DNA of 47,184 nucleotides from Puniceicoccales bacterium (lineage in GTDB: Bacteria > Verrucomicrobiota > Verrucomicrobiia > Opitutales > UBA9783), in NCBI GenBank assembly GCA_031258545.1, contig JAIRMU010000005.1, positions 1 through 47,184 of the forward strand, given 5' to 3'. How positions within the stretch are numbered: the stretch's first letter is position 1; the number at the start of each line of letters is the position of its first letter. Shown here piece after piece: positions 1 through 47,184 of this stretch. Under the pieces are notes generated by a model, which saw only the letters and a list, made by a program, of their open reading frames with translations, was not told the DNA's origin and ran no database searches. The position numbers were made by a program, and so were the translations under genes.

Positions 1-94
1 CCTCAAGACCTCAAGACCTCAAGACCTCAAGACCTCAAGACCTCAAGACCTCAAGACCTCAAGACCTCAAGACCTCAAGACCTCAAGACCTCAA
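1..94 (+). repeat. 8-bp tandem repeat (cctcaaga), about 11.75 copies, cut by the window edge
   Basis: Perfect tandem copies of the octamer cctcaaga run from the first base to about position 94. Because 8 is not a multiple of 3, every reading frame encodes the same cyclic 8-residue peptide (SRPQDLKT) and none contains a stop. The frame of the following exported-protein gene stays open through the whole tract to the window edge. A different octamer in the same position relative to the same downstream peptide occurs at 25513-25600. The left end of the tract, and any promoter, lie outside the window. Confidence 0.97.
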
Positions 95-2162
95 AGCGTC
101 TGAGCGCTTAATTGCCAACGTCATTCCGGAGCTAAAGGATCCTGGGCAACAGTTGGGATCCGGTCGAAGGTTGAAGTCGGAGCCGGGGTTGGAATCGGGT
201 CGAAGGTTAGAACCAAGCCGAGGATTAAGATCGATTTTAAGATTTGAACCGAAGCAACGGCCAGAATCCAATCAAGCATTGCATCTAGGGTTAAAACCGG
301 GTCAAACATTGAGGCCGGTTTGGAAATCAGGATCGGAACAAAGGTTAATCCCGATTTATGGATTGGTACCGAGTCGAAGATTGTCTCGAAAATTTTGGCA
401 AAACCGGGACCTAGAACCCGCCTGGGAATTAAGGCAAAGCCAGGAATTTGACCCAAGTTGGAGGTTAGAACCCAGTCGAAGATCAGAACCAGATCGAGAA
501 TTGGGATGGTTGAAGTCCTTAGCATATTCGGGATTATTTCACGGGGTTGCCTTACTTTGCATTGCTTTTGGGGGTGCGCTTAATTTTACGCATCCATTGG
601 TTGCTACCTACACCCCGCCGTTTGATTACATTTCAGCAAAGACCCTCGGCTATACTTCCTTTGCAGATGATAATTGGTTTAACGCTTTGGTAGGCGCTTG
701 CGGAAGTGCTGCGCGCGTTTATGAGTTAATGGTTCCAAATACCATGGTGGATTCAAACGGTAATTTGTATGGCGCTGCTGTTGATAATTGGTCCGGTTAC
801 TTTGGCGGAAAAGGTCATTATATTGTAAGAATAGATCCTTCCGGAATTCAGTACACGCATGCTCACATGTCTGGAAATTATATTGAAGGTAATTACACTT
901 GGCCAATTGGCAGAACACCCACCCCCAATCAAGAGGATGGGACCTACGATCACTTTAAACGGCGTTCTTGGATGGGGTTGACGCCTTGTATCGCCCGTGA
1001 GTGCAATGGTTCTTCGGATTATGTGTACCGCCTGGTGTATGTGCTGCCATCTCGTTGGTGGAATAGTAGTTCGGGTGGTGATACTGAAGGATTCTTGTTA
1101 TTGAAAATTCGGAAATCTGATCATGAAGTTATGCATTCAAGCTTTTTACCTTACACAACTCGATCAGAAGTGTGTATGGGATATTTCCCAGGGACATATA
1201 TAAACAGTAATAAAGTTGCTTTTTCAGCCTGTCACGATGTCAATGGTGGAAAGGTTTATTGTCAATGGTTGACTGCCGATTCTAGAGCTGGTCCCCAAGT
1301 GCACACGAGAACCATTACTTTCGACACCAATCAAAATACATGGTCCAGTTGTTCCACACTCTCCATGGACAATACCGTCTCGGATTACAGATCATGTTCC
1401 CTAGAACCACGTACGATAAAGGGCGTCAATGGTATATATGCTTTGGCCGTGCGTAATGGGTATTATCCGTACATAAATAAAGTTAATACAACCACAAATT
1501 ATTGGACAGTTTGGGGAAATGGTTTGCACGGGAGCGGTTGGGATACGACGGATTGTAGTTATCATGCTGACTTTGAAATCGTCAAGGCCAGTGATAATAC
1601 GGAATTATTTTTAGTATTGATGTATTCTTACGGCAATCGATGCAATGCGATGAACAGTGAAAATGCTGACTCTCAATGCTGGACTACCCATTATGTTTCC
1701 TGGGGAATGTCCAATATTGTGCTACACATACAATCCTCTACAACCGGTACAAATTGGACAAGTGGACCTGAAAACGTAATCTACACAACGACCGTCGCCG
1801 CCGGTAGCGCCTCTACCGCCGAAACACTTTCGACTTCGACTTTATATAAATGCACGCACAAATTGGTGGCCTACCACAATCACATCATTTATGCCTACTG
1901 TTATCCGGGCCGAAAGACGCACCTCATTTTGGGAGTGGCACGTTATTTTATTGATTCCAATAGGCAATTCCATCTATCAATCAAAAGAGAGTTTATTGAT
2001 TCCAGCGGCAACAGTTTTGGCAATTTGACCAACTGTTCCAGAATCATTTCGATGGATGTCAGCGCTAACGGACATCTCTGGATTACTTGGATGTCTGCAG
2101 ATAATCAAACATACTATTATTTTCATGCCAATGCACAGGATGTTATCGACCACGCCATCTAA
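3..2162 (+). CDS. Large exported protein with repeat-encoded N-terminal leader (5' partial), unknown function
   Basis: I do not recognise the family. The frame is open from the window edge through the octamer tract. It then encodes ASERLIAN, an Arg/Gln/Pro-rich hexapeptide-repeat leader, one hydrophobic segment (within 530-590, GLFHGVALLCIAFGGALNF) and about 520 residues of Cys-, Tyr- and Trp-rich exported-looking sequence. The first conventional start is TTG at 153 (669 aa). I extend upstream because ASERLIA before that TTG is conserved with the prepilin locus at 25400-25510. Motifs shared with the next gene are YTPPFD, YVLPSRWWN, SGGDT, NHIIYAYCYPG, DSSGNSFGNLTNCSRII and a C-terminal QDVIDHA. 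The hydrophobic segment probably acts as a signal or anchor, placing the body outside the cytoplasm. A beta-propeller-like fold is possible but unproven. Confidence 0.8.
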   Translation, partial: SRPQDLKTSRPQDLKTSRPQDLKTSRPQDLKASERLIANVIPELKDPGQQLGSGRRLKSEPGLESGRRLEPSRGLRSILRFEPKQRPESNQALHLGLKPGQTLRPVWKSGSEQRLIPIYGLVPSRRLSRKFWQNRDLEPAWELRQSQEFDPSWRLEPSRRSEPDRELGWLKSLAYSGLFHGVALLCIAFGGALNFTHPLVATYTPPFDYISAKTLGYTSFADDNWFNALVGACGSAARVYELMVPNTMVDSNGNLYGAAVDNWSGYFGGKGHYIVRIDPSGIQYTHAHMSGNYIEGNYTWPIGRTPTPNQEDGTYDHFKRRSWMGLTPCIARECNGSSDYVYRLVYVLPSRWWNSSSGGDTEGFLLLKIRKSDHEVMHSSFLPYTTRSEVCMGYFPGTYINSNKVAFSACHDVNGGKVYCQWLTADSRAGPQVHTRTITFDTNQNTWSSCSTLSMDNTVSDYRSCSLEPRTIKGVNGIYALAVRNGYYPYINKVNTTTNYWTVWGNGLHGSGWDTTDCSYHADFEIVKASDNTELFLVLMYSYGNRCNAMNSENADSQCWTTHYVSWGMSNIVLHIQSSTTGTNWTSGPENVIYTTTVAAGSASTAETLSTSTLYKCTHKLVAYHNHIIYAYCYPGRKTHLILGVARYFIDSNRQFHLSIKREFIDSSGNSFGNLTNCSRIISMDVSANGHLWITWMSADNQTYYYFHANAQDVIDHAI
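150..515 (+). repeat. 18-bp periodic region encoding hexapeptide repeats
   Basis: The stretch encodes degenerate six-residue units of the form [SNG]-[RQ]-x-[LF]-[ERK]-[PS], for example EPSRGLRS, PSWRLEPS and EPSRRSEP. It forms the basic leader in front of the hydrophobic segment of the exported protein. The PSRRLSRKFWQNRDLEP block aligns without gaps to PSRGLCQRFGKNQESKP in the prepilin gene on the minus strand near 25300. The two leaders are therefore homologous and not just alike in composition. Confidence 0.8.
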
Positions 2163-2366: not shown

Positions 2367-2395
2367 TTGACAGCAAAAAAACTTTCGAATATAAT
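2367..2395 (+). promoter_or_regulatory. Perfect sigma-70 consensus promoter TTGACA-N17-TATAAT
   Basis: TTGACA lies at 2367-2372 and TATAAT at 2390-2395, separated by exactly 17 bp. The expected start of transcription is about 2402, with an ATG at 2403. That ATG reads only MNMKVGSYKGL before a stop and is one frame away from the exported-protein paralogue whose homology begins around 2408. The promoter is excellent by sequence, but its translation product is not obvious. Confidence 0.75.
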
Positions 2396-2551
2396 TTTTC
2401 ATATGAATATGAAGGTTGGGTCTTACAAGGGTCTTTAATTTGCTTTAATACCGCTTACATTTACGCCTATACCCCACCGTTTGACGGAAAGTATAGGTCA
2501 GACAAAGTAAGTCCTCATTCATATGCATGCTCGGGTGTTTGGTACGATAAA

Positions 2552-4030
2552 ATGAAATCCGTTTGGGGTTCTGACCTAAAGATTTTGGAAAAGATTCGTC
2601 CTGGAATTATGGTGGATTCAACGGGGACCTTATATTACATCATGATGGATGTTGGAACTTATTTTGGCGGTAAATCTTTCTACCCGGGTAAAATCACCCC
2701 AAACGGTACGCAATCTAACGGTAGATTTGATATAGACAGTTATATGGGAGATACTTACACCTGGCCAGGTAACAGTATAAAAACAATCGAAAGTGATGCC
2801 GATTTTTCAAAAGCCGCTTGGGTTTCATTAGCACCGTGCATGGCGCAGGAAGCCAATGGAACTACCGATTACGTACACTCTATTGTGTATGTTTTACCCT
2901 CGCGTTGGTGGAATACCGGTTCGGGTGGCGATACGAAAGGCCTGTTGTTTACCAAAATTAAAAAGTCGGATTTAAGTGTAGCAGCTTCCAGTTTTGTAAG
3001 TGGCCATTGGAATATAATAGCTCGTAATTTTGGAGATTTTACCACGTTAACCTACAATAAAAACGTCTTTACAGCTATTTACGACGTTGGAGTGGGAAGA
3101 ACAAGTGTTTTTTGGCTACATAAATTTAGTGCAAATGGTGATTACAATAGTACAAATGATAGTGGTAGTACTACGAGATTAAGTCGTCATGTTTTCAATG
3201 ATCAGGGGGGAACCGTCTTCAATCAAGGATGTTCTTATGGAGTGGCAGAATTAGCATACAAACATTGTATAGAGCCGCGTATCATGAAAGTTGGGAATGA
3301 ATACCACTTTGCCACCTCAAATGGCTACTACCCTTGGTGGATTAAAGCTGAATCGACAGAGAGAAGTAATACAATATTTGCCGATTACAATCCATATATG
3401 GATGGTTACGATGCCAATACGAGTTCCGCATCGTGTTGTTACCACAATGACTTGAATGTCATTCAACACGGTGGACAAACGATTGCCCTGCAACTGGCCC
3501 TGAGCAAAACATCGCGCTTGAATGACGCCGGAGGTCAATGGAATGCATCTTACATTAGTTGGAATACATCATACGTTGTCTTAGTCCTTTACTCATGGCC
3601 TGCAGGTTACGTTTGGCACAACAGTAAAAGTCGACCTATATCTACCGAGAACTGCATTGCCGTCTTCCCGGTAACAACCGGAACCAGCACAGAAGCAACT
3701 TCGGCTACGACCTTGTACAAGAATACCCACATGTTTGTCGTGCATAACAATCACATCATTTATGCCTACTGCTACCCGGGCAAGAAAACCCACCTTGTCC
3801 TCGGTGTTGCTCGCTACGGGCTGGATGCTGGGAATAACGTCCGTTTGCTAACCAAGCGTGAATTCGTGGATTCAAGTGGTAACAGTTTTGGTAATTTAAC
3901 CAACTGTTCTCGCATTATTTTCATGGATGTCAAAAATGGGTATCTCTGGATCGTATTCGCTTCCGTTGACAACAAAAGCTTCTATTATTGCTGCATCCCC
4001 GCCCAGGAAGTTATCAATCATGCTTCTTAA
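2552..4030 (+). CDS. Exported-protein paralogue of the first gene, truncated or frame-disrupted N terminus
   Basis: The 492-residue product from ATG 2552 is homologous to the first gene over its whole length. It shares YVLPSRWWN, SGGDT, NHIIYAYCYPGKKTHL, DSSGNSFGNLTNCSRII and a C-terminal AQEVINHA, while the middle third has diverged strongly. Homology continues upstream in the same frame to about 2408, including YTPPFD (2471-2485) and a weak hydrophobic stretch LQGSLICF. That upstream part has no ATG, GTG or TTG back to the stop at 2336-2338. The leaderless-type ATG at 2403 is off by one frame. The gene therefore either starts internally without a signal, uses a frameshift, or is newly inactivated. 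Function unknown. Confidence 0.7.
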   Translation: MKSVWGSDLKILEKIRPGIMVDSTGTLYYIMMDVGTYFGGKSFYPGKITPNGTQSNGRFDIDSYMGDTYTWPGNSIKTIESDADFSKAAWVSLAPCMAQEANGTTDYVHSIVYVLPSRWWNTGSGGDTKGLLFTKIKKSDLSVAASSFVSGHWNIIARNFGDFTTLTYNKNVFTAIYDVGVGRTSVFWLHKFSANGDYNSTNDSGSTTRLSRHVFNDQGGTVFNQGCSYGVAELAYKHCIEPRIMKVGNEYHFATSNGYYPWWIKAESTERSNTIFADYNPYMDGYDANTSSASCCYHNDLNVIQHGGQTIALQLALSKTSRLNDAGGQWNASYISWNTSYVVLVLYSWPAGYVWHNSKSRPISTENCIAVFPVTTGTSTEATSATTLYKNTHMFVVHNNHIIYAYCYPGKKTHLVLGVARYGLDAGNNVRLLTKREFVDSSGNSFGNLTNCSRIIFMDVKNGYLWIVFASVDNKSFYYCCIPAQEVINHAS

Positions 4031-11762: not shown

Positions 11763-13265
11763 TTAATTTTTCACATGAATTTTTCGGCTTAGGCGTGAAA
11801 CGGCAACAAACCAAACGCAGGAAGTGAGAAGAAAGATGATGAAGGCGTACGGTGCAATGCTTTCGTACGTCGCTTGGGTCCCGGAACATAGGGTTACGCC
11901 CGTCAAGAGAATGACTTGCAATCCAGAACCGCCCGATTTGCCGAATCGATATCCCAATACATCCACAACAGCTTTACCTTTTACTTTCAGGTCTTCACTT
12001 AAAGGAATGTAGGCCATTTCTTTACTTAAATCAAAAAAGGACATTTTTGAAGATTTTATGCCAATGAGAACTACAACACCTGCAAAGATGATGAGTGATT
12101 GGTGGGCCAGTGCCGATCCCAAACATTGTATGCAGTAGTTTTTGGCAAAAATACTTCCGAAGATAATTATGCCACCTAATGTGACAATGCACGGGGTAAT
12201 CATGGCGCCAATACCCCATTTAAATCGACGAAAAATGTTACCTGCTATGATCAGGATAAACATGGAGAATAACCCGTAATGCATTGTGTATTGGCACATA
12301 AATGTGTTGTATTGGTTGATGTCCGGAAATCGATTTTTGAGTTCATGTTTCCAAAAGTTTTCCAAAATATTATCGTTGATGCCGTAGCAAATGACCAGGA
12401 GAGCAATTAATCCCAAATAGGGAGATGTGATGGCCATTTTTAAACCTTGCCATATGCTGCTTTTCGACTTTTTTATCTTTATACCTGGCAAATAAGGTTT
12501 GTTATAAAATCTGCGATCCGTTAGGACGTGTTGGTACATCCAGTGGTACAAAAACATAACGATAATACTGGTAACAATGACGGTTCCTATGAGATAATTG
12601 AGGGTTATTTGCCATGGGTCTTGAAACTCGGGTGTGTTATTTTTAATGTCGGAAGCCATTGCACCGACAAATCCAGATAGGGTAACGGCGCTTTGTCCTA
12701 TGATGGCTAAAAATGCATAGATACGTTTTGCGTCCTTGAGTTCGGTAATTTGATTTACAAACTGCCAAAAAAGCAAAGTCAGTATAAAACTACTCCACAA
12801 TTCGGCTAAAACAAAAAATATTGTGTAGCTCCATACACCTAGAATAGAAAAAAGCCAGAAAGCGCTGGGAAACATGACTTGAAGGCCTACGATCGTGTCG
12901 TGGGAGGGGTGAAAAAAGGACCGATAGGGATATAAACAAAATGCAAATAAAGCAAAAAAACATAAAAAAGACGAAAGTGTGGCATAAAACAGGTGTTCAT
13001 TTTTTAACTTATCGCTGAGTTTTGTGTAAAGTAGCATGCATAGGACCGCACCAGGAGGAACACAAAAAAGTTTGATGAAGGCCAAAGCCTCTGCACCTAC
13101 GTTGGTAACGATGAGGGAATCTTTTATATTTTTCAAACAATAGTGATTAAAAAGTGTGATAAATAAGATGATTCCCAAAGGAATGATTTTTTTCAATTCA
13201 TAGCGATGAATGGGGAAAAAAATACCCCGTACTGTAGAAAATTCGCAATCGACACTTGCTTTCAC
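11763..13265 (-). CDS. tlc: ATP/ADP-type nucleotide translocase (Tlc/Npt family), copy 1
   Basis: Members of this family of about 12 transmembrane helices exchange host ATP for bacterial ADP or import nucleotides. They are characteristic of obligate intracellular bacteria and plastids. Family sequence is plain: FFPIHRYELKKIIPLG, NIKDSLIVTNVGAEALAFIKL, a DRRFYNKP loop, FDLSKEMAYIPLSEDLKVKGKAVVDVLGYRFGKSGG. I start at GTG 13265, because MKASVDCEFSTVRGIFFP then aligns end to end with MSETSVEPEFSKLRRIFFP of copy 2. An upstream TTG at 13322 is better explained as the TTGACA of a promoter. The product is 500 aa. It is divergent from the symporter-kinase gene. Exchange versus proton symport cannot be told from sequence here. 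Confidence 0.95.
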   Translation of the reverse strand: MKASVDCEFSTVRGIFFPIHRYELKKIIPLGIILFITLFNHYCLKNIKDSLIVTNVGAEALAFIKLFCVPPGAVLCMLLYTKLSDKLKNEHLFYATLSSFLCFFALFAFCLYPYRSFFHPSHDTIVGLQVMFPSAFWLFSILGVWSYTIFFVLAELWSSFILTLLFWQFVNQITELKDAKRIYAFLAIIGQSAVTLSGFVGAMASDIKNNTPEFQDPWQITLNYLIGTVIVTSIIVMFLYHWMYQHVLTDRRFYNKPYLPGIKIKKSKSSIWQGLKMAITSPYLGLIALLVICYGINDNILENFWKHELKNRFPDINQYNTFMCQYTMHYGLFSMFILIIAGNIFRRFKWGIGAMITPCIVTLGGIIIFGSIFAKNYCIQCLGSALAHQSLIIFAGVVVLIGIKSSKMSFFDLSKEMAYIPLSEDLKVKGKAVVDVLGYRFGKSGGSGLQVILLTGVTLCSGTQATYESIAPYAFIIFLLTSCVWFVAVSRLSRKIHVKN

Positions 13266-13295
13266 TTTTTTAAATGAATTTGAAAGCCAACAAGC

Positions 13296-13322
13296 TTTAT
13301 AAATTTTTAAATTAATTGTCAA
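13296..13322 (-). promoter_or_regulatory. Candidate promoter of translocase copy 1
   Basis: On the minus strand TTGACA at 13322-13317 is followed by TATAAA at 13301-13296 (15-bp spacing) or ATAAAG at 16-bp spacing. The -35 is a perfect match, but the -10 register is ambiguous. Transcription from here would give a leader of about 20-25 nt before GTG 13265. Confidence 0.4.
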
Positions 13323-23990: not shown

Positions 23991-24623
23991 ATGTTTCCGC
24001 CTCCGAATGAATGGTACCCGCTGACAGTCGGTCTGAAACGTACTTGTTTTTGAAAAATATCATCATCCGCATATTGTTATCGGAGGTGACAGCTATTACG
24101 GCGACGATGAAGGTATCTAAAATTTCGAGAAAACGTGCCGTATCACCACAAATTTCTTTGTAACAAGCTGATTATCGGAAAATTTCGTCGAGTTGCCTAT
24201 GGCACAAAATGCTTGATGAACGGAACGTTCCATATTCTGAATGCGTTTTCAACTTATTCTTCTGTGATTTTTTCTGGTGAGTGCAAAGCAAAATATCCCG
24301 ACGACGTAAGCCTTTCGTGTCAATAGAATATACGCATCGGCAACGACGTTTGGATGGGCTATAACGCAGCTTTCATGCCCGGCATAAAAATCTCCGACGG
24401 AGCAATTGCTGAAACGAACTCTGGGGTTACAAAGAACGTTAGCCCATGTGAAATCCGGGAAAATACTGCAAAGCTGATTTACAAAAGATTTTGCGACCAT
24501 GTGATGGAATTGTTGTTGAAAATTCAATGGTGGAATTGGGGTATCGAAAAAATTGTAGTCAATATCAATGGGCCAATAAATAGTGATGTGAAAAAGTTGA
24601 GTAGGCGAGGGGAGCTACTCTAG
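23991..24623 (+). pseudogene. Broken CatB/Vat-like hexapeptide acetyltransferase
   Basis: Left-handed beta-helix acetyltransferases of the xenobiotic type are recognisable across several frames. The pieces are an N-terminal MFPPPNEWYPL (23991), PHIVIGGDSYYGDDEG (about 24067), LIIGKFRRVAYGTKCLMNG then FHILNAFSTY (24167-24260), and, after an in-frame stop at 24324-24326, RIGNDVWMGYNAAFMPGIKI and MELLLKIQWWNWGIEKI. The catalytic His expected in the NGxxHxxxxxSTYPF region survives as NGTFHILNAFSTY. At least two frame changes and two stops break the gene. Family members acetylate chloramphenicol, streptogramins or cell-surface sugars; the original substrate here is unknown. Confidence 0.8.
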
Positions 24624-25405
24624 TAGTATCGATTTTCCCAGAGCGTGTTGCTGTTGAGATCCGTGGACCCCGGGCATTCGGGTAAAATGCAAAACATACG
24701 ATCATTCGAACCAATAAGAGTCGTAATATACCTTTCCCCAAGACATGACTTGAACCTATTATAACATTTATTCCACTCGGCGGTATTTTGTCTGATGCCA
24801 TACAACGAAACACCCATGCTATGAGGTTTTTTGCCGGTATCCATAAAATTATCCAAATCGTAACCGTACGCCGTTTTACCCAACGGTATGCGATTCCATC
24901 GATGTGAATTCCCGTAACTTGGACGAGGATCGATGAGATGGCTAGGAACAAACGGAAGTAATTTGGCCGGTATATCATTGTATACGTTAGATGGAAACTC
25001 GTTAAAGATGAGATAGTAATTGCGGCAGGCTTTGAGGATATCCACCGTGTCTTCCAGGGTGGAATTTAATCGAAAATCTTCGGTGGCTTTCCTAAAGCCA
25101 GGAATGGCAATGGCGGTAAGGATGGCCACGATGCACAGGGTGACAACAATTTCGATGAGGGTAAAGCCGGTGCGGGTTACGGAGGGGGACTTTGAAGCCC
25201 GGGTAGGTCCCAGAGCTCGATTTAGTCTCAATCGTTGTTCCGAATCCAATTCCTGGCTTGGTCTTAGGCGTTGGTTCGGTTTCGATTCTTGGTTTTTCCC
25301 AAATCTTTGACACAACCCTCGGCTTGGTTCAAATTCCTGGTTTGGCCTTAATTGCCGGCCTGGTTCTAAATTCCGATTTGGCTTCGATCCTTGACTTGGG
25401 TCCAA
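24620..25405 (-). CDS. Prepilin-like protein with long hexapeptide-repeat leader
   Basis: From the first in-frame start (TTG 25405) the product is 261 aa. About 80 residues of hexapeptide repeats (RNLEPGRQLRPNQEFEPSRG...) precede a classic type IV prepilin/pseudopilin motif, SPSVTRTG/FTLIEIVVTLCIVAILTAIAIPGFRK. The cut is after Gly80, with Phe+1 and Glu+5. The short pilin body (KACRNYYLIFNEFP to C-terminal ENRYY) resembles small verrucomicrobial 'type II secretion system' pseudopilins. The frame is open upstream to 25600 through ASKRLVAK and the octamer tract but contains no earlier start codon; GTG 25604 is one frame off. A second copy lies at 46622-47184. An 80-residue leader before the peptidase site is far beyond the usual 6-30. 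Confidence 0.8.
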   Translation of the reverse strand: MDPSQGSKPNRNLEPGRQLRPNQEFEPSRGLCQRFGKNQESKPNQRLRPSQELDSEQRLRLNRALGPTRASKSPSVTRTGFTLIEIVVTLCIVAILTAIAIPGFRKATEDFRLNSTLEDTVDILKACRNYYLIFNEFPSNVYNDIPAKLLPFVPSHLIDPRPSYGNSHRWNRIPLGKTAYGYDLDNFMDTGKKPHSMGVSLYGIRQNTAEWNKCYNRFKSCLGERYITTLIGSNDRMFCILPECPGSTDLNSNTLWENRYY

Positions 25406-25480
25406 TCTTCGGATTAATCCACGACCTAGCTCCGATGCCTGGCCAAATCCAGATGTTCGAAGAGGAACCGACGCCCCAGG
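25195..25480 (-). repeat. 18-bp periodic region encoding hexapeptide repeats (second locus)
   Basis: Minus-strand coding repeats such as NLEPGRQLRPNQEFEPSRGL and NQRLRPSQELDSEQRLRLNR, with period six residues. The order of variant units aligns with the leader of the exported protein at 150-515. The opposite strand is also open and encodes a hydrophobic artefact, as expected for such repeats. Confidence 0.8.
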
Positions 25481-25512
25481 ACGCCTTTTTGCAACTAAGC
25501 GCTTAGATGCTT

Positions 25513-25600
25513 CGGTGTCTCGGTGTCTCGGTGTCTCGGTGTCTCGGTGTCTCGGTGTCTCGGTGTCTCGGTGTCTCGGTGTCTCGGTGTCTCGGTGTCT
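25513..25600 (-). repeat. 8-bp tandem repeat (agacaccg), exactly 11 copies
   Basis: Eighty-eight bases consist of 11 perfect octamers (cggtgtct on the plus strand). All frames read the same cyclic peptide RHRDTETP without stops. The tract sits between a promoter with GTG 25604 and the ASKRLVAK peptide leading into the prepilin-like gene. With 11 copies the GTG frame ends at TAA 25505-25503. One extra copy, or two fewer, would join GTG to the prepilin frame. Confidence 0.97.
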
Positions 25601-25613
25601 TCACAGTTAAGCT

Positions 25614-25642
25614 ATTGTATCTTCCCTACCTACCACTGTCAA
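25614..25642 (-). promoter_or_regulatory. Near-consensus sigma-70 promoter reading into the octamer tract
   Basis: On the minus strand TTGACA (25642-25637), a 17-bp spacer and TACAAT (25619-25614) form a near-perfect promoter. The expected +1 is about 25607, with GTG at 25604-25602, so translation would be leaderless (start at about +4). Transcription runs directly through the 11 octamers into the prepilin-like gene. It is the best promoter on the minus strand that I found. Confidence 0.75.
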
Positions 25643-33207: not shown

Positions 33208-34734
33208 ATGAGTGAGACAAGTGTAGAGCCAGAGTTTTCTAAATTAAGACGTATATTTTTTCCCGTTCATCGGTATGAATTGAAAAAAGTTATTCCCATG
33301 GGAATGATTTTATTTTTCATATTATTCAATTACACGTGTTTAAGGAATATTAAAGACTCGTTGGTCGTTACCAACACAGGTGCGGAAGCACTCTCTTACC
33401 TAAAGTTGTTTTGCGTAACACCTTCTGCCATCGTATTTATGCTTTTGTATGCCAAAGCGAGCAATATCTTAAGCAACGAAAAATTATTTTATGCAACCCT
33501 TTCACCTTTTATTCTATTTTTTGGCTTGTTTGCGTTTGTCATTTACCCCAATCGCGAATGGTTTCATCCAACGGCAGCAACGATTGCGAGTTGGCAAGCC
33601 CAGTTGCCCATTTTACACTGGCCAATCGCTTTATTGGGCGTGTGGAGTTACAGTGTATTCTACGTTTTGGCAGAATTGTGGGGAAGCGCTTTACTGTCTT
33701 TGTCCTTTTGGCAATTTGCAAACCAAGTAACGCGCGTTTCTGAAGCCAAACGCGTCTACGCTTTTTTTGGTTTAATGGCTCAATTCTCCTTATTATTTTC
33801 GGGCGTCTTGGGAGATTATTTTTCCAATATTTCGGATATGGGAAACCCCGATGTAGATCCTTGGCAAATTTCTCTCAATTGGCTTATGGGGACCGTTGTT
33901 TTATTCGGTATTGTTACCATGTGCATTTACCGGTGGATTTACAAACACGTTTTAACCGATAAGCGTTTCTATGATAAGCCAGAGTTACCCGGTGTCAAAA
34001 AGGGGAAGAAAAAAGCTGGACTCATTCAAAGCTTGAAAATTATCTTTACGTCGCCTTATTTAGGATTAATTGCAATATTAGTTATTTGCTATGGCATCAG
34101 TGTAAATGTCATCGAAGGCTTATGGAAAAGTCAGCTGAAATTACAATATCACAACGAAAACGATTACAATACATTTATGAGTCGTTACACGACACTAACA
34201 GGCCTTGCTTCCATCGTTATGTTAATCGTCGGAGGCAATATACTGCGCATTTGCCGTTGGGTGGTCGCCGCAATGTCTACACCGGTTGTGTTTTTGGTGG
34301 GGGGCACAATTTTCTTTTCATTCATTTTATTTCGTCAAGAATTGACGGATATATTAGTTCAGTGTGGCACCAATCCGGTGACCATGGCCGTATTTTTAGG
34401 TGCAGCGATTGTGATTGTATCTAAATCCACCAAATACGCTTTGTTCGACCTAACAAAAGAAATGGCCTATATCCCTTTGGACGAAGAAATGAAGGTCAAA
34501 GGTAAGGCCGTTGTAGAGGTTGTAGGTGGCCGTTTTGGTAAATCGGGAGGTGCTTTCATCCAAGTTGCATTATTTTCTATCGTGAGTAGCTTAGCAGGTA
34601 TAAAAGCAACCTATTATCAAATTGTACCTTACGTATTTGTTTTATTTATCTTGGGGTGTATTGTATGGATTTTCTCCGTAATCGCTTTGGGGAAACGTGT
34701 GGAAAACGCCAATAAAGAAGCGGGAGAGGCTTAA
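33208..34734 (+). CDS. tlc: ATP/ADP-type nucleotide translocase (Tlc/Npt family), copy 2
   Basis: 508 residues, about 12 membrane helices. It is colinear with copy 1 at 11763-13265: FFPVHRYELKKVIPMG, NIKDSLVVTNTGAEALSYLKL, SVFYVLAELWGSALLSLSFW, DKRFYDKPELPGVKK and FDLTKEMAYIPLDEEMKVKGKAVVEVVGGRFGKSGG are all conserved. The two proteins are clearly paralogous but diverged, as in chlamydiae, where different copies import different nucleotides. The C-terminal tail is longer and charged (KRVENANKEAGEA). Substrate cannot be assigned from sequence. Confidence 0.95.
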   Translation: MSETSVEPEFSKLRRIFFPVHRYELKKVIPMGMILFFILFNYTCLRNIKDSLVVTNTGAEALSYLKLFCVTPSAIVFMLLYAKASNILSNEKLFYATLSPFILFFGLFAFVIYPNREWFHPTAATIASWQAQLPILHWPIALLGVWSYSVFYVLAELWGSALLSLSFWQFANQVTRVSEAKRVYAFFGLMAQFSLLFSGVLGDYFSNISDMGNPDVDPWQISLNWLMGTVVLFGIVTMCIYRWIYKHVLTDKRFYDKPELPGVKKGKKKAGLIQSLKIIFTSPYLGLIAILVICYGISVNVIEGLWKSQLKLQYHNENDYNTFMSRYTTLTGLASIVMLIVGGNILRICRWVVAAMSTPVVFLVGGTIFFSFILFRQELTDILVQCGTNPVTMAVFLGAAIVIVSKSTKYALFDLTKEMAYIPLDEEMKVKGKAVVEVVGGRFGKSGGAFIQVALFSIVSSLAGIKATYYQIVPYVFVLFILGCIVWIFSVIALGKRVENANKEAGEA

Positions 34735-46621: not shown

Positions 46622-47184
46622 TTAATAGTATCTATTTTCAGCTTTTCGTATGCTTTCGGTTTTCTGGGGAAATTCTGGGAAATCGTAATACATATCTTTA
46701 TTTTTGACTAAATATACATCGTTGACGTTGTAGAAATGTTTTTTGTAGTCATCCAGCGATTGAAATTTATCCCACACGCTTTTAAAGTCATTTATATTTG
46801 CTACACGCAATGTTAATCCTGCTTGCATGGTACTACAAGTATTCCAGCCAATCGTATTTTCGAAATCGAACTTATTTCCACTCTTCCCGAGAGGTACATA
46901 CGTAAATAGATCTCCTTTATACAAATGATTCGGCAGAAAGTAGCGAATCTTGCCAGCTGGAACCGTATTGGTCGAACCGTTAGGTGGAAACTCGTTAAAA
47001 ATGAGGTAATAGTTGCGACAAGCTTTTATCACGCATTCGGCATTATATATACACATTCGTTGACACGAAAATCTTCCGTCACCTTCCTAAACCCCGGGAT
47101 GGCGATGGCGGTCAGGATGGTTACAATGCACAACGCGACAACGACTTCGATGAGCGTAAATCCGTTTCGGATTACGGAAGGGGA
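46622..47184 (-). pseudogene. Second prepilin-like gene, frameshifted and cut by the window edge
   Basis: Homologous to the prepilin-like gene at 24620. Reading in from the edge: SPSVIRNG/FTLIEVVVALCIVTILTAIAIPGFRKVTEDFRVN, then the frame is lost. The second frame resumes with VIKACRNYYLIFNEFP and runs to a C-terminal ENRYY identical to the first copy. Between conserved Asn and Lys codons there are 32 nt here against 30 in the intact copy, and the excess lies at a (TA)n run (47044-47050). The simplest reading is a 2-nt slippage insertion. An alternative is an assembly error. The pilin body between the conserved ends is unlike the first copy. Confidence 0.8.

Follow-up and report, generated by a model that had tools for sequence, protein, structure and literature searches.

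The window, by which we mean the whole analyzed stretch of 47,184 nt from the genome of a Puniceicoccales bacterium, carries a type IV pilin-like gene on its minus strand, preceded by a long leader, an array of octamers, a GTG codon and a promoter. The features on which the following description is based are listed here in window coordinates.

25614–25642, minus strand: promoter TTGACA-N17-TACAAT, read from the sequence; the same element stands at 14 loci of this genome and at one of the sister species
25602–25604, minus strand: putative GTG start codon at about +4 of the predicted transcript, leaderless-like; GTGAAGAC is invariant in 15 of 15 loci
25512–25599, minus strand: candidate slippage tract of 11 perfect octamers GACACCGA (TRF, 100% match)
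25491–25511, minus strand: conserved junction AGCATCTAAGCGCTTAGTTGC, reading ASKRLVA in the prepilin frame; nine sites in this genome with at most 3 mismatches, and a homologous junction in the sister species
25169–25511, minus strand: long leader of degenerate 18-nt/6-aa repeats (R/Q-x-L-x-P-x), supported by a stop-codon test
24620–25168, minus strand: mature type IV pilin-like protein GFTLIEIVVTLCIVAIL...ENRYY (alignment, TIGR02532, structure model)
1–2162, plus strand: second copy of the module, truncated by the contig edge, with 11.8 octamers GACCTCAA (1–94), the junction (95–115), a leader and a fused non-pilin protein
46622–47163, minus strand: another family member of prepilin type, at the right contig edge; its coding part contains one frameshift, and it is syntenic with a locus beside recA/dnaJ in the sister species (G001:C14)
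11763–13322, minus strand: TLC-family ATP/ADP transporter, typical of intracellular energy parasites
33208–34734, plus strand: second TLC-family ATP/ADP transporter, likewise typical of such parasites

At the window locus TTGACA occupies 25642-25637 and TACAAT 25619-25614 with a 17-nt spacer between them, and TACAAT is followed by AGCTTAACT and then by the GTG at 25604-25602. A promoter of this shape alone is close to chance expectation (2 in the window vs. approximately 1.2 expected), and its significance derives from the recurrence at 14 loci of the same genome and one of the sister species, not from the lone match. The frame entered at the GTG reads VKTPRHRDTETPRHRDTETPRHRDTETPRHRSI and ends at the TAA 25505-25503. 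Each octamer contributes 2 mod 3, and 436 nt (1 mod 3) separate the GTG from the GF codon of the prepilin; 11 copies thus leave the locus OFF, and the two frames are fused by the gain of one copy (12) or the loss of two (9). The prepilin frame itself is closed by a TGA right where the array begins and therefore has no other start upstream than the out-of-register GTG. The earlier note had described the promoter, the GTG at 25604, the 11 octamers and a prepilin out of register, all of which were found base-exact in the sequence and by TRF; its path of the GTG frame through the octamers to the TAA and its one-register offset, curable by 12 or 9 copies, were borne out as well. That the array is open in all three frames was also considered as evidence and set aside as uninformative, since about 0.6 of random octamers are equally open.

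The motif GFTLIE is invariant in the eight aligned prepilin sequences, which combine this cleavage/methylation motif with a hydrophobic N-terminal helix. The window pilin matches TIGR02532 with 23.2 bits (cut-off 16.3), while its PF07963 match lies just below the cut-off (19.1 vs. 21.2), and its predicted structure weakly resembles PilA1 of C. difficile. The leader is expected to be cut off by prepilin peptidase between the G and the F of GFTLIE, and pili, or possibly pseudopili, would be the product of the switched genes. The genome contains T2SSE-family ATPases, four secretins of the pilus/secretion type and MutS; the prepilin peptidase domain (Peptidase_A24) was detected in the sister species but not in the present assembly, which is 92.5% complete, and the missing match counts against the proposed system. 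Two further kinds of pilin copies occur. One, within a contig (L120, C8:57496-57984), is devoid of the first 17 residues and is a possible silent cassette. The other, with an ATG, a short leader and no array, is kept in both species (L122 on C20; L117 on contig C4 of the sister) and is a probable constant pilin.

The leader provides a record of strong selection on the reading frame. Between the junction and the cleavage site, the leaders of 12 loci from two species contain no stop among 1887 codons in the prepilin frame, vs. 108 expected from the base composition per codon position, although 815 of the codons are one change away from a stop; the two other frames hold 138 and 52 stops. In-frame ATG (1 vs. 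25 expected) and GTG (1 vs. 29 expected) are depleted beyond the level of the other frames, and in-frame TTG is common (68). Variation by codon position in the leader head (11, 7, 10) is, unlike the stop test, uninformative. The stop-free prepilin frame and the depletion of ATG and GTG indicate that the leader is translated from upstream, and the upstream GTG would then be the natural start of both leader and prepilin. The frequent TTG codons could instead serve a constitutive prepilin started within the leader (e.g., at 25405), the array being a neutral or structural 5' element; the frames do stay open at OFF loci, and with the leader presumably cleaved anyway, the mature pilin could arise in any register. 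We regard such an internal start as improbable, since it would not preserve a stop-free frame reaching the array in every locus and would explain neither the depletion of in-frame ATG and GTG, nor the invariance of the upstream GTG and its spacing, nor the retention in the sister species of a frame-shifting array with another unit.

The earlier note had treated the window locus as a single one, which did not hold: there are 14 copies of the module in the 1.02-Mb genome, forming a multigene family. The module comprises the promoter, 9 nt, GTGAAGAC, octamers, the conserved junction and the hexapeptide-repeat leader, and the start context GTGAAGAC followed by an octamer occurs 14 times. Across these loci and one of the sister species the promoter spacer varies from 16 to 18 nt at a constant 9 nt to the GTG, and the three bases preceding the invariant GTGAAGAC differ (ACT, ATT, ATC or GTA in the 15 loci). 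Two octamer types are present, GACACCGA and GACCTCAA, both covered by GACMYCRA; repeats were sought by pattern, and other repeat classes in this genome may have been missed. At least half of the 14 copies precede genes for pilus proteins. Copy numbers, which are consensus values of the assembly, are 1, 1, 1, 1, 4, 10, 11, and 14, with further arrays ending at contig edges. The seven readable prepilin loci, listed below by contig, comprise one ON and six OFF, and these differences in copy number and register are differences across paralogs of one assembly.

C1: 10 copies, OFF
window: 11 copies, OFF
C16a: 1 copy, OFF
C16b: 1 copy, OFF
C19: 1 copy, OFF
C21a: 4 copies, OFF
C21b: 14 copies, ON

A remnant at C14:156106 consists of the promoter, the GTG and one unit without a pilin. 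At C16:9534, C16:10826, and C19:720 the single octamer is out of frame and the leader and pilin are nonetheless fully open. Such one-unit prepilin loci (n = 3) cannot slip and look locked OFF, which counts against the proposed switch; their open frames would have to be explained by a recent loss of units, by recombination with other copies, or by a different start.

On C4, C6, C12, C14, C15, C16, C21, and C23, contig ends interrupt arrays, as is expected if they reach or exceed the length that the assembler could bridge. The fragmented assembly, with its breaks inside arrays, is also what could be said for an assembly artefact or a functionless neutral microsatellite. Perfect arrays are, however, seated within unique flanks at many loci, the reading frame is under strong selection, and the same architecture was assembled independently in a second species, and we give such an explanation hardly any credence. 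Outside this genome, the octamer pattern yielded no real arrays in 131 relatives, only scattered weak matches, mostly with 3 mismatches, and viral contigs gave none.

The second species is Puniceicoccales bacterium Ncb351_bin56 (JAITAV01; G001), the second genome of the genus in the comparison, which we take to come from a termite gut. In its prepilin genes the octamers are replaced by heptamers (CCCAAGA), and the junction and the leader are homologous. The syntenic ortholog of the window locus (G001:C2), beside glycogen phosphorylase, has approximately 18 heptamers, an array different in sequence and length whose unit is again no multiple of three. An upstream half in the sister species reads TTGACA...TATACT, 9 nt and GTGAAGACCCAAGACCC, so that the promoter and the GTGAAGAC context are kept. 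Thus, the sequence and length of the repeat changed and the frame-shifting switch remained. Further loci with syntenic partners are C1, linked to mutS, the right-edge locus, linked to recA/dnaJ, and C16b and C21b. In the case of C16b, the partner shows neither an array nor the GTG context, and a stop breaks its leader. No arrays accompany the pilin relatives of G002, the next genus of the family. The two species amount to a natural test, with the same loci, a different repeat unit and the same arithmetic.

Switches are also found on surface-type genes that are not pilins. The non-pilin protein at the left edge of the window belongs to a family with four members in this genome and three in the sister species, and its structure model is beta-propeller-like with low confidence. 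Another paralog of this family (L154/L167) has a decamer, (CGCCGTTCTT)n, directly behind the start codon; its halves lie at the end of C22 and the start of C7 and are probably one gene split over the two contigs. From its sequence, the decamer array looks like it encodes the signal peptide of a surface-type protein. In the sister ortholog (L148, G001 C17) the ATG lies 6 nt past the -10 box and the gene is OFF in the assembly. The decamer is a second frame-shifting switch, found in both species. Within the window, a further paralog of the left-edge gene (2367-4030, plus strand) has TTGACA at 2367 and TATAAT at 2390-2395, and its ATG at 2403, which opens MNMKVGSYKGL followed by a stop, does not share the frame of the conserved ORF, two GGGTCTT copies lying between; this paralog may be OFF or decayed.

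The distribution of the repeats raises the question whether the arrays are mainly recombination sites, at which promoter/leader modules and pilin genes are exchanged, with frame switching as a by-product. All pilin arrays seen in one species have a unit type in common, and at syntenic positions the sister species uses a different one; loci combine promoter types with octamer types in a mixed fashion; one copy of the module has become joined to a protein unrelated to pilins, and a 5'-truncated pilin copy exists at C8:57496. Such a view leaves the invariant GTG that immediately precedes the array and the open leader frame unexplained, and recombination between arrays can operate alongside slippage; as the main explanation we consider it unlikely. 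Slipped-strand switching and exchange may be joined in a broader scenario, for which we would claim slightly less than even odds: the switch module, made up of promoter, leaderless GTG, frame-shifting array and cleavable hexapeptide-repeat leader, may be portable, may have come to precede surface genes unrelated to one another in an intracellular verrucomicrobial lineage, and may be kept species-uniform by recombination between arrays; a whole set of loci would then have exchanged 8-nt for 7-nt units, or 7-nt for 8-nt units, after the two species separated, with the switch retained.

Initiation at the GTG has to be seen against the general pattern of starts in this genome. Of the 23 window genes, 22 have no Shine-Dalgarno-like motif ahead of the start, and initiation without one is therefore normal here. 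The array-free prepilins of C20 and of the sister (L117) have their ATG 6–8 nt past a -10-like box, i.e., the same leaderless geometry. Leaderless initiation in mycobacteria includes GTG starts. For mycobacteria, translation from leaderless transcripts has been described (PMC4633059). In the proposed mechanism, RNA polymerase would start 3–4 nt before the GTG, and ribosomes would initiate on this codon of a nearly leaderless mRNA. Slipped-strand mispairing in the octamers right behind the start codon would alter the copy number, each octamer step moving the frame by 2 mod 3, so that one register in three would join the start to the leader and prepilin (ON) and the remaining two would meet a stop soon past the array (OFF). 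Removal of the leader at the GFTLIE site would leave no trace of the repeat-encoded peptide in the mature pilin, and some 14 independent switches could generate many pilin combinations within a population.

Two hallmarks of translational phase variation were found here: repeats with units of 8, 7, and 10 nt, none a multiple of three, at the start of the frame, and both ON and OFF registers at differing repeat numbers across paralogs. The slipped-strand reading of the earlier note is strongly supported by the 14 paralogous modules with differing unit counts and registers, by a leader open in the prepilin frame only, by the invariant GTG and by the heptamer at the syntenic sister locus. We therefore consider the window locus, with a probability of roughly 0.86, to belong to a multigene family of surface proteins that undergo translational phase variation by an opa-like mechanism. 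The genes bearing the switch are very probably turned on and off in a random fashion, and slippage would be taking place in living cells.

Contingency loci are known chiefly from animal pathogens that face immunity. The present bacterium probably leads an intracellular life; the 1.02-Mb genome and the two TLC ATP/ADP transporters of the window fit the "apparently intracellular" of the earlier note. That about 14 loci are spent on switches, mostly on pilins where readable, suggests a strong and changing selection on the surface, which is unexpected here; the host cell, phage or rivals are candidate selective agents. This would also be a rare case in which phase variation is seemingly coupled to leaderless GTG initiation and to a leader that vanishes on maturation. 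Literature searches retrieved no paper combining "phase variation," "octanucleotide repeat" and "slipped-strand mispairing," and nothing on phase variation in this lineage. What appears to be new is opa-type translational phase variation acting on prepilins in an unexpected lineage, with the switch logic conserved and the repeat unit replaced.

Several known systems resemble these loci in part. In the pilE/pilS system of Neisseria, silent cassettes feed the expressed gene by gene conversion. The pilins described here likewise have a conserved N terminus, a variable C terminus and a truncated copy elsewhere in the genome, but gene conversion into an expressed gene differs from the repeat-based switches that we read in the octamer loci. 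Haemophilus influenzae has heptamer and octamer repeats near the hmw genes (PMC2651432), with 7- and 8-nt units as here, which are likely mediators of surface-protein phase variation; those repeats are mostly in promoters and upstream regions, whereas the present ones lie within the reading frame and are common to a gene family. The Neisseria pilC1/pilC2 genes undergo translational phase variation by poly-G (PMC5320596), also a repeat-driven frame switch that affects pilus biology, but PilC is a pilus-associated protein encoded in one or two copies, and here many pilin subunits are switched. The opa genes of Neisseria carry a CTTCT pentamer in the 5' coding region of 11–12 paralogs (PMC5320596). 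The product here is a prepilin and not an Opa outer-membrane adhesin, the units are octamers or heptamers, the GTG is leaderless-like, the leader is long and cleavable, the unit type has been replaced between sister species and there is no sequence relation to opa; going by their product, these genes are not opa. In their working, however, the two are alike: a dispersed family of surface proteins, each gene having a repeat of its own close to the start codon, copy numbers that differ between paralogs, and a register that sets translation ON or OFF.
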